A DNA stretch of 64,000 nucleotides, taken from NCBI RefSeq assembly GCF_023973145.1, contig NZ_CP099546.1, forward strand, positions 1,674,001 to 1,738,000. Direction: 5' to 3'. Origin of the DNA: Natronosalvus vescus. GTDB taxonomy: Archaea; Halobacteriota; Halobacteria; Halobacteriales; Natrialbaceae. Made by a program: the position numbers and the translations under genes. The notes below the pieces were generated by a model. It was given only the letters and a program-made list of their open reading frames with translations, ran no database searches and was not told the origin of the DNA. This document shows, in pieces, positions 33,039 to 37,306 of the stretch (position 1 is the first letter of the stretch; every line of letters starts with the position of its first letter).

Positions 33039-33575
33039 TCAGGGTATAGTGGCCGTGAATTCCTCGAGGTTTCCAGATTCGATCGCCTCGACGCTGGCTG
33101 GAACGCCCTCGTCGAACTCGAGTCGGACGCGGTACGGCTGGGAGACCACGTCGTCCGTACACTCCTGACCGGCCTCCCTATCGGTTCGACCAATGATGCG
33201 CACGGACGCCGATTCGTCCTCGCTATCGTAGCGAGCCCAGTTGAGGACGACCTCGCCGCAGGAACTCGAGGAGTAGCTGATCGTTCCCTCGATCGTGACC
33301 GGCGATGTCGATTCCTCGAGTGTGATCGTCGGCGATTCATCCACCGAGGGGACGTCAGAGAGATCGCCGACCGTTGTGAGTTCCGAACGCTGGAGTTCGG
33401 TCGGTCGAGCGGGATCAGTGTCGTCGGTGTCGGTTCCGTTTCCGTTTGCACCGGTTCCATCTCCGTTCGTGCCGGTTCCGTCCCCGTTCGCACCCTCCGT
33501 TGGCCTCTCGAGACAGCCGACGAGCGGCGTTGTGAGCACGATCACGACTCCGCTGAGAATCGATCGGCGATCCAT
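33039..33575 (-). CDS. Predicted lipoprotein with Gly/Asn/Thr-rich linker
   Basis: A 178-residue exported protein. The signal peptide is MDRRSILSGVVIVLTTPLVGC, with an RR pair and a lipobox (VGC), so Tat export and lipid anchoring at Cys21 are likely. A repetitive linker follows (GDGTGTNGDGTGANGNGTDTDD), then a ~115-residue beta-rich domain (VTIEGTISYSSSSCGEVVLNWARYD, ASVRIIGR). The two cysteines in SSSSCGE and GQECTDD may form a disulphide. The family is not recognised. It is encoded divergently from the acidic-protein cluster that follows. Confidence 0.75.
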   Translation of the reverse strand: MDRRSILSGVVIVLTTPLVGCLERPTEGANGDGTGTNGDGTGANGNGTDTDDTDPARPTELQRSELTTVGDLSDVPSVDESPTITLEESTSPVTIEGTISYSSSSCGEVVLNWARYDSEDESASVRIIGRTDREAGQECTDDVVSQPYRVRLEFDEGVPASVEAIESGNLEEFTATIP

Positions 33576-33740
33576 AGTGAAAGCAAACTGTCACCTCGGG
33601 ATAAGTTTTCTGCACCCTGAAATGGCTCTTTACCTATCGCGTTCTCTGGCATGTGCAGTTATTGGCGACTGTTGAGCAACCCTTATCGAGGTAATTTACG
33701 CTTGAAACGGCCGTGGATGCACACGCAAGGCCAACTCACA

Positions 33741-33775: not shown

Positions 33776-34954
33776 ATGGCCGAAAACGAGAACGTACGAG
33801 ACGACAGGTCGGCAGCGTCGACGTCACGCTCGAGGAGGGAGTGCGTCCCCGTTCGCTCGTCGAAACCGGACAGATCCGGATCGCGTCCGCTTTTACCCGA
33901 TGGAGGGGTTGCCGAATCGTCGGTGGAGGAATCCGATTCCGACGACGCCTCCGACGAAGATGAATCGGAAGGTGATGACGATGATGTCGAGACTGAGGCC
34001 GAAGAGGAATCCGAATCCGAGTCCGAAGACGAGGAGGACTCCGAAAGCGAGGATGGCGAGGATTCAGACGAGGACGAATCGGCGGCAGAGGAAGAGACGG
34101 AGGAACCCGATTCGACAGACGATGAAGCGACAGATCAGGAAGAAGACGCGGAGGAAGAAGACGCGGAAGACGACGAAACCGAGGATAGTGACGAGACGGA
34201 GGAGGCCGACGAACCCGGTGAGCAGCACGGCATCGACGCCGAAGAAGTCTACGAGAGCGAGGACACGTCCGGCGTCGCCCACCTCGATCTCGACGGCCTC
34301 TTTCTCGACGTGCTGGGCCTCGAGGTCAACCTGAACGAGGTAACCCTCGACGTGTCGGCGCGACCAGGCGAGAACAACCTCCTGGGCAACCTCCTCTCCT
34401 CGGTCACCGGGTTGCTCGATGGGCTTGGATCGCCGCTCGAGTCGATTACGAACGCCCTCGGGAAGATCCCAGGCGGGCTCAAGAGCGCCGCCACCGGTTT
34501 GCTCGGGGGGTTGAAAGACCGACTCTCGGGGCTCATTCCTGGACTCGGCGGCGGTGACGAGGATGCAGACGAGGAAGAAGCCGACGCCGAATCGGACGAG
34601 GAAGACGAAGGTGGTGTTCTCTCGACGATCAGCGGGTGGTTCCGATCACTCGGCTCGAAGATTGCCGACTCGGTGCGCGGATTGATCAAGCGCGCGGTCT
34701 CGTCGCTCCCGCTCGAGCAGGTGCTCGCGAGCATCCTCAGGACGACGCTCAAGGCTGTCGTCGACCGGATGGAATCGGGTTCGGACGATGAAGACGGTGG
34801 GGCTGACGAGGGTGACACCGAGGAAACCGAGGAAGAGAGTGCCGAGGACGAAAGCGAAAGCGACGCCGACGGAGACGGAAATGGAGACGAGGAATCGCAG
34901 GGGGACGAACCGGACGACGAGGAGCAATCCGAGGAAGCGGAGGTAAAAGCATGA
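33776..34954 (+). CDS. Highly acidic protein with a hydrophobic repeat-like core (gene 1 of acidic cluster)
   Basis: A 392-residue protein. ATG 33776 (MAENENVRDDRSAAST) was chosen over an in-frame start 21 codons upstream because the intervening DNA is repeat-like. Residues ~50-165 are almost pure D/E/S. A core at about 168-262 contains HLDLDGLFLDVLGLEVNLNE, then LDVSARPGENNLLGNLLSSV, then amphipathic repeats (ALGKIPGGLKSAATGLLGGL). A second amphipathic helix region at about 282-338 (ISGWFRSLGSKIADSVRGLI) precedes another acidic tail. There is no signal peptide. The core resembles, from memory, a domain of uncharacterised secreted bacterial proteins. The function is unknown. It overlaps the next gene by four bases. 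Confidence 0.8.
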   Translation: MAENENVRDDRSAASTSRSRRECVPVRSSKPDRSGSRPLLPDGGVAESSVEESDSDDASDEDESEGDDDDVETEAEEESESESEDEEDSESEDGEDSDEDESAAEEETEEPDSTDDEATDQEEDAEEEDAEDDETEDSDETEEADEPGEQHGIDAEEVYESEDTSGVAHLDLDGLFLDVLGLEVNLNEVTLDVSARPGENNLLGNLLSSVTGLLDGLGSPLESITNALGKIPGGLKSAATGLLGGLKDRLSGLIPGLGGGDEDADEEEADAESDEEDEGGVLSTISGWFRSLGSKIADSVRGLIKRAVSSLPLEQVLASILRTTLKAVVDRMESGSDDEDGGADEGDTEETEEESAEDESESDADGDGNGDEESQGDEPDDEEQSEEAEVKA

Positions 34955-35340
34955 CCGACGACTCACTCACACAGCGACTCGACTACGAAGAGATCATCGA
35001 GGGAATTGACTTCGAGTCAATCTTCGAGGGGACGCCGCTCGAAGGCGAGTTCCACGGCGACGAACCGATCGGAAAGGCCCTTGGCGGAATGATCGGGGCC
35101 CAAATCGGGCGAAAGCTCGGCGAACAAATCGGTGCTTCAGTCGGCGAAATCCTCGTCGAGGAGTTCCTCAAGGAGGACGAGGAAGACGAGGACGAAGAAG
35201 AGGAAGACGAGGAAGAAGAGGCTGCGGAAGACGAAGCGGAAGACGAGGACGAAGCGGAAGACGAGGACGAAGCGGAAGACGAGGACGAAGCGGAAGACGA
35301 GGACGAAGCGGAAGACGAGGACGACGCCGACGAGGAATGA
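34951..35340 (+). CDS. Glycine-zipper protein with poly-acidic repeat tail (gene 2 of acidic cluster)
   Basis: A 129-residue protein whose ATG overlaps the previous stop (ATGA), indicating translational coupling. Residues ~10-45 read DYEEIIEGIDFESIFEGTPL then GEFHGDEPIGKALGG. Next comes a glycine-zipper helix (MIGAQIGRKLGEQIGASVGE) with G every four residues, which could pack in a membrane or in a helical bundle. The last ~55 residues are only D, E and A, including five perfect EAEDED repeats. The N-terminal ~60 residues are clearly related to those of the following gene. No family is recognised. Confidence 0.8.
   Translation: MTDDSLTQRLDYEEIIEGIDFESIFEGTPLEGEFHGDEPIGKALGGMIGAQIGRKLGEQIGASVGEILVEEFLKEDEEDEDEEEEDEEEEAAEDEAEDEDEAEDEDEAEDEDEAEDEDEAEDEDDADEE
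35233..35322 (+). repeat. Five perfect 18-bp tandem repeats inside the acidic gene
   Basis: GAAGCGGAAGACGAGGAC is repeated five times without mismatch at 35233, 35251, 35269, 35287 and 35305, encoding EAEDED each time. Perfect DNA identity over 90 bp in a coding region points to recent expansion, and copy number may vary among strains. Confidence 0.95.
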
Positions 35341-35475
35341 CCGCTACAATTCCACTCCCTCGAGGACGGGTCACCCGAGCACCACGCCCAGCCGAAATCG
35401 AGCGTACACCCCTGGGCGTGTTCCACACGGGAGGCTCCCCTCATCGTGACCCCTTACACAGCGGAGGCGATCGAC

Positions 35476-36204
35476 ATGAGTGATCGACCGTCCGTGAAAG
35501 AACTCGTCGTCGACGAAGCACTCGAGCAGGTTGACCTCGAGTCGGCACTCAACGGCGGCCCGCTACGGGATGAGATCGATGCCACCGAGATCGGCTCTGC
35601 GGTCGGTCGACAGGTCGGTGAACAACTCGGACGGTCGATGGGGGAGGAGCTGGGTGCCTCGATCCAGGAGACGGCATCGACCAGCCTCGAGGAAGGTCGA
35701 TCGTTTCGGGCGTTCATCGGCGACCTGGTACGCGCGATTCGCGAGGCGCTCGTCGTGTGGCTCGAGGATCTCGGACTCGATGGGATCGCCTCAGGAGTGG
35801 CACCGACAGTCGAGGAGACTGCCGATGACGGAGAGACGGACGCCGACGAAGCCGATGCGGACGAGACGACGGAAGAAACGGGTGACGAGACGGAAGAGGC
35901 TGATGAGGACGGAGACGAGGAGACGGAAGAGGCTGATGACGAGGCGGCAGAAGACGAGAACGAAGCCGTCGAAGAGGACGAAAGCGAACCCAACGTCGAT
36001 GACAATGGTGTCCCGGACATCGACGACCTGGAGGATCTCCGCCGTGACGCACTCGAGGACGTCCTCGAGATGGTCTCGTACCGCGATCTGCAGTCGATCG
36101 CGAAGGAAGTCGGCGTGAAGGCGAATCTCGAGGGGTCGGAGATGCGGGATCGAATCGTCGACGCCGTCACGGACGAATCGGAGACGAGCGAAGAAGCGGC
36201 CTGA
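35476..36204 (+). CDS. Glycine-zipper acidic protein with SAP/Rho-N-like C-terminus (gene 3 of acidic cluster)
   Basis: A 242-residue protein. ATG 35476 is preceded by a Shine-Dalgarno GGAGG (35463-35467). Residues ~9-70 (EALEQVDLESALNGGPLRDE, then VGRQVGEQLGRSMGEELGAS) align with the previous gene's N-terminus, so the two are paralogues. A hydrophobic helix follows (FIGDLVRAIREALVVWLEDLG). An acidic D/E/A/T stretch (about 115-180) comes next. The final ~55 residues (DLEDLRRDALEDVLEMVSY, then DLQSIAKEVGVKANLEGSEM) look like a SAP or Rho-N helix-extended-helix module, usually nucleic-acid binding. There is no signal peptide. The function is unknown. Confidence 0.8.
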   Translation: MSDRPSVKELVVDEALEQVDLESALNGGPLRDEIDATEIGSAVGRQVGEQLGRSMGEELGASIQETASTSLEEGRSFRAFIGDLVRAIREALVVWLEDLGLDGIASGVAPTVEETADDGETDADEADADETTEETGDETEEADEDGDEETEEADDEAAEDENEAVEEDESEPNVDDNGVPDIDDLEDLRRDALEDVLEMVSYRDLQSIAKEVGVKANLEGSEMRDRIVDAVTDESETSEEAA

Positions 36205-36250
36205 TCGACTCGAACGAACACTCGTCGGCTATCACTGATATCGACTACAA

Positions 36251-37306
36251 ATGACCGACTTCAACTCCAACTCCAACTCCAACGACAAATCAGTTCACTC
36301 GCTGCTCGATGACGCGACGGAGGTACTCGAAAATATCGGCATCGAACTCGAGGACGCTGAGGAGGCTGACGAGGCGGGAATCGATCTCGAGACCGACTTC
36401 GAGTCCGACGCCGACTCGGAGGAAGTTCTACCGGAACCGCTTGCCTCGTCCGACCTGCCGGCGCTCGCCCAGTCGGCTCACGACCTTCTCGAGGAACGCG
36501 ACGTCGATCGGCTCCTCGAGGAGATCGGTTTCGACGACGTCGATGAAGATGCTCCTGAATCGATCCCGGCGGCGATTCTCGCGGGCGACCCGGGTGACGT
36601 CTCGACCCTCCGTGGAGTGCAGCGACTCGCGAGGCTCGCGGAGATCCAGGACGAAGACGGCGCGGCTGAATCCGTCGAAGAGACGATCGCGGAACTCCGA
36701 ACGATTCTGGCACGGCGACGAGACGAAGACGGTGGCGATGCATCGGAGGCAAGCCAGAACGAACCTGTGGACGAGGCCGAGGATCAAGCCGAAGCTGAGG
36801 ATGAATCCGAGGACGAATCAGACACGGATGCAGACGCCGACAAGAGTGACGAGGCAGCCGATGAGAGTGACGGGACGGACGACGGCACAGCGGCTGACGA
36901 CGAGAGCGAGGGAACAGACGACGAACCCAGCGATAGCGAAGACGGCGGCATCGGATCGTCGATCACGGATACGCTCGGAGAGAGCGTGAGCGGGTTCAGA
37001 GACGAAATCGAGGCCGTTCAGAACGGACTCGAGGCGATCGGTGCTGACGATGATTCCGGGAAGGCGGACGATGATGGCTCGAGTGATGACGGTGTCGAGG
37101 GCGATACCGGGGATGGGGAAGGTGTTGAGGGCGATACAGAAGATGAGGCGGAAGAATCGGACAGCGACGAAGACGACGGTCTCCTCAGTGGTTCGGGTGA
37201 CTCGCGGCGACGCGGGACGATGTACTCCACCGTCGCCCTCTCTCCGTCGAAGCGAACGGACATGAAGGCCGTCAAACGGCACTCGACGGTTCCGGATCGA
37301 CGGTGA
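36251..37306 (+). CDS. Acidic coiled-coil-like protein (gene 4 of acidic cluster)
   Basis: A 351-residue protein starting MTDFNSNSNSNDKSVHSLLDD; the SN repeats come from a 6-bp DNA repeat. An N-terminal helical part (residues ~13-150: SLLDDATEVLENIGIELED, LAQSAHDLLEERDVDRLLEEIGFDD, VQRLARLAEIQDEDG) is followed by long D/E/S/T-rich stretches. A predicted helix (SITDTLGESVSGFRDEIEAV, ~residues 237-256) interrupts these. The C-terminal ~30 residues are unexpectedly basic (RRRGTMYSTVALSPSKR), which could bind the acidic partners. It lies 46 bp after gene 3 and ends 7 bp before a convergent gene. No family is recognised. Confidence 0.75.
   Translation: MTDFNSNSNSNDKSVHSLLDDATEVLENIGIELEDAEEADEAGIDLETDFESDADSEEVLPEPLASSDLPALAQSAHDLLEERDVDRLLEEIGFDDVDEDAPESIPAAILAGDPGDVSTLRGVQRLARLAEIQDEDGAAESVEETIAELRTILARRRDEDGGDASEASQNEPVDEAEDQAEAEDESEDESDTDADADKSDEAADESDGTDDGTAADDESEGTDDEPSDSEDGGIGSSITDTLGESVSGFRDEIEAVQNGLEAIGADDDSGKADDDGSSDDGVEGDTGDGEGVEGDTEDEAEESDSDEDDGLLSGSGDSRRRGTMYSTVALSPSKRTDMKAVKRHSTVPDRR

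Follow-up and report, generated by a model that had tools for sequence, protein, structure and literature searches.

A four-gene cassette of acidic proteins as a candidate gas-vesicle accessory module of haloarchaea whose gas-vesicle clusters lack gvpC

In a DNA stretch of 64,000 nucleotides from Natronosalvus vescus (contig NZ_CP099546.1, positions 1,674,001–1,738,000; the whole stretch is referred to as the window) we have analyzed a cassette of four genes, g1 to g4, at positions 33776–37306. The best reading of our results is that the cassette is an undescribed gas-vesicle accessory module of those haloarchaea whose gas-vesicle (gvp) gene clusters are devoid of gvpC. A place of the cassette in gas-vesicle biology appears very probable. 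Gas vesicles are gas-filled flotation bodies. Most work on them has been done with a small number of model strains that possess gvpC, and it is mainly from clusters of the gvpC type that the haloarchaeal gvp genes known so far were described. The cassette proteins are unlisted accessory components of this known organelle. Their homologues are publicly annotated as hypothetical, and in the open-licence literature we found no description of the cassette; what comes nearest is an earlier note on Natrialba magadii, where GvpI is long and an additional gene is present (PMC3403918).

The strongest link to gas vesicles is the distribution of g1, which was followed by its conserved core of 52 amino acids (aa) as delimited from the alignment (34274–34429, + strand). 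Two samples were used, one of 391 genomes of the Halobacteriales and one of 125 genomes of the family Natrialbaceae. In the larger sample g1 is present in 139 genomes and gvpA in 168, and all 139 genomes with g1 also carry gvpA; in the 223 genomes without gvpA no g1 was found. In the family sample 108 genomes have both genes, 4 have only gvpA, none has only g1, and both are missing from 13 (Fisher p = 1.6e-14; the p-values for co-occurrence ignore phylogeny and are descriptive only). The 13 double-negative genomes span six genera and include one Natronosalvus species (G111). As the cassette and gvpA are usually unlinked within the family, their joint absence from these genomes argues for a functional dependence of the cassette on gvpA. 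Thus the cassette behaves as a gas-vesicle gene set should, being confined to gvpA-bearing genomes and, as described below, linked to gvp clusters.

In the genome of the window the gvp set is split over three unlinked places, with gvpA-N-O at ~1.24 Mb, gvpF-G-H-I-J-K-L-M at ~1.04–1.05 Mb and the cassette at ~1.71 Mb, so that the window alone gives no hint of gas vesicles. A weak “gvpK” match within the window (15.7 bits) turned out to be noise from GatC. The gvp set of this genome is complete except for gvpC, which was not detected in a search for PF05465, and gvpDE, for which no specific search was made. In Natronosalvus hydrolyticus (G114, loci L037 and L166), a divergent species of the same genus, the cassette follows directly after gvpA and gvpO and adjoins the gvpF-M operon; the identities of GvpF, GvpA, and GvpO in L037 were confirmed with Pfam. 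The arrangement in locus L038 is the same, and other haloarchaeal families likewise have the cassette next to or within gvp clusters. The cassette follows gvpF-M in L158 and adjoins gvpO-gvpA in Halohasta (L208, L209) and in L204, and in L038, L158, L208, and L209 the adjoining gvp cluster is complete. Genes of the g1 and g2/g3 types are also found beside or within the gvp clusters of L084, L087, L088, L092, L095, L096, L100, L197, and L205, and in five of these loci (L087, L088, L095, L100, L205) they lie downstream of gvpA-gvpO. In clusters of the Halocatena type (L092, L096, L125, L175, L176) a g1-type gene, and in most of them also a g3-type gene, is located between gvpH and the gene at the gvpI position; NCBI annotates them as “hypothetical protein”.

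Some gvp clusters without a match to g1 harbor acidic glycine-zipper proteins which end in “LSxExLxxLAxxLxxEL” (L212:6756-7436, L213:7063-7779, L214:6132-6542, L215:9034-9672). The g2/g3-type genes may be tied to gas vesicles more widely than g1. Two further proteins of these clusters deserve mention. In the GvpO of the L037 lineage (L037:9317-9814) the GvpO domain is preceded by a fused DUF5763 module (CKALTxxGxRCSR...GFCxQH), and between gvpO and g1 several clusters contain a small conserved unannotated protein with two CxxC pairs (CPSCGS...CLDCR; L087:7339-7692, L095:7694-8029).

The cassette is conserved far beyond chance, as is evident from the frequency of the g1 core and from the four-gene order kept across many genera. 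The core was detected in 108 of the 125 family genomes and is nearly always single copy. In a first pass g1-g2-g3-g4 were found on one strand in 18 of 20 sampled genomes with varying flanking genes, and the order is kept in 62 of the 80 named loci of the GTDB collection. Profile searches completed the four-gene set in one further locus, L038. The initial annotation of the window had proposed a candidate system, and the synteny bears this out. A tblastn search of plasmids with the g1 core gave no match, possibly owing to the low-complexity filter.

The four genes all lie on the + strand, are coding-like and are called by a codon-usage gene finder. The overlap of g1 and g2 is the four nucleotides ATGA, which is retained in 17 of 23 cassettes; g2 and g3 are separated by 135 bp with a GGAGG Shine-Dalgarno sequence upstream of g3 (35463–35467, +), and g3 and g4 by 46 bp. 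This layout is exactly as initially annotated. The strongly acidic character of the proteins could be verified as well: aspartate and glutamate (D/E) amount to 33–50% of the residues, compared to roughly 5–27% for the remaining genes of the window, and the net charges of g1 to g4 are −115, −59, −65, and −94. The proteins appear soluble, as no segment of transmembrane strength (maximal Kyte–Doolittle mean over 19 residues 1.28) and, judged by eye, no signal peptide is apparent in them. Scans of the whole proteins and cores of g1–g4 against Pfam and NCBIfam gave no match above the cut-off, among them no phasin family, no PF05465 repeats and no PF00741, the GvpA/J/M shell family. Sequence searches of the PDB yielded only low-complexity noise, and no enzyme is found among the cassette genes, as already stated in the initial annotation. 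The neighboring gene on the opposite strand (33039–33575) codes for a putative lipoprotein (MDRRSILSGVVIVLTTPLVGC).

The claim that no known family is present does not hold for g4 (36251–37306, +; 351 aa). In gvp clusters of this kind the gene between gvpH and gvpJ is a long GvpI. When a profile of 20 g4 proteins was compared to 15 proteins from this position, hhalign gave a probability of 99.1% (E 8.7e-19) and the alignment is colinear over the length; the reversed control reached 7.7%, and g1 or g3 against GvpI 1% or less. The basic C-terminus of g4 that had been noticed initially was confirmed and tells more than any other element of the cassette, since it is the GvpI tail: the conserved tail GTMYSTVALSPSKRTDMKAVKRHSTVPDR (37214–37300, +; consensus in the alignment YSTMAPPPSxRADMxxxxRHSTMPxR) is the counterpart of AHSTMPP...SHSTVPK in the canonical GvpI of pNRC100 (WP_010890525.1) and of NPTAASTMP...YSTVPQ...STAPSRxRIYGRRF in the long forms. 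Along its length g4 aligns with the long GvpI family (Nmag_0338 type), and the duplicated ST(M/V)P repeat region is common to g4, the long forms and GvpI of pNRC100. However, canonical GvpI is basic (pI 10.8, PMC9501494), whereas g4 is strongly acidic and is a second copy at the end of an operon of its own with g1–g3; the genome has its normal gvpI between gvpH and gvpJ (L230). Therefore g4 is a GvpI-type paralogue and not GvpI itself. GvpI is reported to interact with GvpC, GvpH, and GvpL, and deletion of gvpI to result in overlong vesicles (PMC9501494, PMC4390858). The genome of the window also contains a solitary GvpI-like gene at ~2.253 Mb (L231:6075-6872), just downstream of apparent A-type ATP synthase genes. 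Its product of 265 aa scores 119 bits against the gvpI profile and has the tail RNPTAVS...RYSSVPP...RVYGRRW.

A match to gas-vesicle proteins, which the initial annotation had named as evidence against a new system, was found for g4 only; g1–g3 match no curated family, including the curated gas-vesicle families. The first gene (33776–34954, +; 392 aa; an in-frame GTG at 33713 is an alternative start) codes for an acidic N-terminal arm, the hydrophobic core HLDLDGLFLDVLGLEV...GNLLGNLLSSVTGLLD, amphipathic helices and an acidic C-terminal tail. The core is almost invariant in the alignment (HLDLDGLFLDLLGLEV-N-L-V-LDVSARPG-NNLLGNLLSAV-GLLDG). In locus L102 (6173–7495) a single protein joins the g1 core to a g3-type C-terminal helix, which suggests that the g1-type and g3-type parts act in one complex. 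The core also occurs in stand-alone proteins (GNLLGNLLCAVAGLLD or similar) of haloarchaea and of the bacterium Salipaludibacillus (L094:6691-7362, L101:6655-7080, L103:6648-7226, L206:7644-8231, L207:7572-8162), with no gvp genes nearby and in several cases with apparent export signals. These solitary, exported-looking proteins share the core with g1, whereas g1 itself looks cytosolic and has extra helices and acidic arms. In most species a short motif LL(P/T)DGG is present near the N-terminus of g1 (33890–33907), and the same motif is seen in the N-terminal region of the Halohasta GvpO (L208:10266-10835).

Judged from their sequences g2 (34951–35340, +; 129 aa) and g3 (35476–36204, +; 242 aa) are paralogous glycine-zipper proteins. 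The shared segment reported in the initial annotation was recovered by hhalign between the N-terminal domains, in g3 the N-terminal half, with a probability of 97.9% (E 6e-13), and the homology of the two was also seen in the whole-genome search at E 6e-10. In the alignments both proteins contain glycine-zipper helices. In g2 the zipper segment IGKALGGMIGAQIGRKLGEQIGASVGEI (35068–35151, +), for which a homologue has weak similarity to the Pfam Gly-zipper, is followed by a D/E-rich tail. In g3 the AlphaFold2 model has the zipper helix at aa 36–73 (35581–35694, +), a second helix at 77–98, a disordered acidic stretch at ~112–167 and a three-helix C-terminal domain at 182–241 (36019–36198, +; DLQSVAKDVGVKANLSREEM) that is modelled with confidence (pLDDT mostly >90). 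Of the PDB entries matched with high probability, the SAP domains of DEK, PIAS1, and 3′hExo fit this domain best, with a probability of 0.98 and 0.9 Å over 42 columns for DEK but a whole-query E >1. Pfam SAP_new25 reached E 0.13 only, and no Pfam SAP match lies above the cut-off. This domain is the tail which the initial annotation had called SAP/Rho-N-like.

In Halobacterium the outer face of the vesicle is reinforced by GvpC (PF05465), and the distribution of this protein is one reason to think of a coat. When genuine gvpC is defined by at least three PF05465 repeats, 11 of the 391 genomes possess it; each of these carries gvpA and none carries g1 (Fisher p = 6e-10, ignoring phylogeny), so genuine GvpC was never found alongside the cassette in this sample. 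Both states occur within two genera. The cassette type is the commoner one in the sample (139 of the 168 gvpA-bearing genomes). This fits to reports that the gvp regions of Natrialbaceae are without gvpC (PMC4390858, PMC3403918) and that the vac regions of Natrialba, Natrinema, Natronobacterium, Halopiger, and Haladaptatus lack gvpC and gvpDE, vesicles not having been seen in these species (PMC4390858). In broad outline GvpC and g3 are built alike, with helices, an acidic stretch, and a C-terminal domain of small size; the cassette differs by gene position, gene number and the lack of PF05465 repeats. The C-terminus of canonical GvpC matches a zinc finger of the Ros/MucR type (PF05443), and that of a divergent GvpC (L117) shows a weak similarity with the SAP-like tail of g3 (29.7%; control 0.3%). 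These resemblances are a hint, not a proof.

We suggest that g2 and g3, through their glycine-zipper helices, and g1, through its hydrophobic core and its helices, would bind each other and the GvpA shell from outside, and that the D/E tails would then form a soluble, salt-tolerant outer coat facing the salty cytoplasm. As a GvpI-type partner g4 might connect the coat with the assembly platform of GvpH/GvpL and limit vesicle length. The cassette would in this way take the part of GvpC in Halobacterium and reinforce and shape the shell. We put the probability of such a lasting, GvpC-independent outer coat at roughly 0.4. In this view, held at somewhat less than even odds, haloarchaea would have a second way to clothe and reinforce their vesicles by a coat of g1, the polyacidic zipper proteins g2 and g3, and a dedicated acidic GvpI paralogue. 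The evidence for the coat role, which includes the mutual exclusion of gvpC and g1, the layout of g3 and the tail of the L117 GvpC, is moderate, whereas the link to gas vesicles is strong.

Several observations weigh against a coat. All sampled gvpC clusters fall into one clade of the GvpF/L/K tree (support 0.99), which takes in the divergent L117 cluster and leaves outside the cassette-type clusters and those with neither; the exclusion of g1 and gvpC is thus a single contrast between two cluster types, and a repeated replacement of gvpC by the cassette was dropped as an explanation. In addition, 29 of the 168 gvpA-bearing genomes lack g1 and 18 of these also lack a recognized PF05465 gvpC, so neither is strictly needed. 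The helices of g2 and g3 share no homology with the GvpC repeats, and the idea that these proteins are degenerate GvpC was rejected (hhalign <1%). The core of g1 is weakly modelled by AlphaFold2 (pLDDT about 50 or less), with helices after it, and the fold search from this model was dropped for that reason. Several cassette-bearing genera were reported not to form vesicles (PMC4390858). Finally, in L092, L096, and L084 g1 and g3 are found between gvpH and gvpI and not beside gvpA, and a place in the accessory operon suits a role in assembly. The cassette proteins could indeed be soluble acidic chaperones or adaptors which, like GvpF-M and GvpH-GvpI, keep the hydrophobic GvpA/J/M soluble and set vesicle number or length and are absent from the mature shell. 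We regard such assembly or nucleation factors as a serious though still doubtful alternative, only slightly less probable than the coat. They would agree with g4 being a paralogue of GvpI, which like GvpH is an accessory protein (PMC9501494), with the insertion between gvpH and gvpI also in L125 and L171, and with the fusion in L102 as parts of one complex. On the contrary, most such genomes retain the full gvpF-M including their own GvpI, so that the cassette is an extra, and in L037, L088, L100, and L205 it follows gvpA-gvpO, the place of gvpC/N/O in Halobacterium. Moreover, a role in assembly leaves the absence of the cassette from the gvpC genomes unexplained.

The predicted fold of g3 raises the question whether its SAP-like tail may bind DNA and tether the vesicles to the nucleoid, so as to position them or secure their inheritance. 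A match to SAP domains is seen for the confidently modelled part of g3, and canonical GvpC likewise ends in a zinc finger, but the long polyacidic linker in front of the domain and the net charge of −65 are unfavorable for DNA binding, and in L092, L096, and L125 the counterpart has a short STEELQSLANQL helix instead of the full SAP domain; we therefore consider tethering improbable. The initial annotation had proposed a cytosolic assembly such as a scaffold, granule coat, or nucleoid-associated complex. Its coat comes close to the one suggested here, whereas nothing positive speaks for a nucleoid-associated complex; this reading and a phasin-like one were considered and are not supported. It is very unlikely that the cassette encodes a cytosolic scaffold which has nothing to do with gas vesicles and only travels along with the gvp genes. 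The cassette is unlinked from the gvp genes in most Natrialbaceae (~0.47 and ~0.66 Mb apart in the genome of the window), and the exported relatives of the g1 core have no gvp genes nearby, as a scaffold would allow. But precisely because the loci are unlinked, linkage cannot account for the one-way dependence on gvpA in 139 of 139 genomes or for the absence of both cassette and gvpA from genomes of six genera, and g4 is of the GvpI type.

Gas vesicles are being engineered via GvpC as acoustic reporters and display particles. Our results identify what the gvpC-less genomes carry besides, namely a set of at most four unannotated proteins which tracks gvpA. If the cassette forms a coat, it would offer a new handle on the mechanics of the shell. 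Should it instead be an assembly complex, the gvp gene lists published so far would miss components in most haloarchaea that have gvp genes, and reports that these species form no vesicles may have to be tested again, this time taking the cassette into account.

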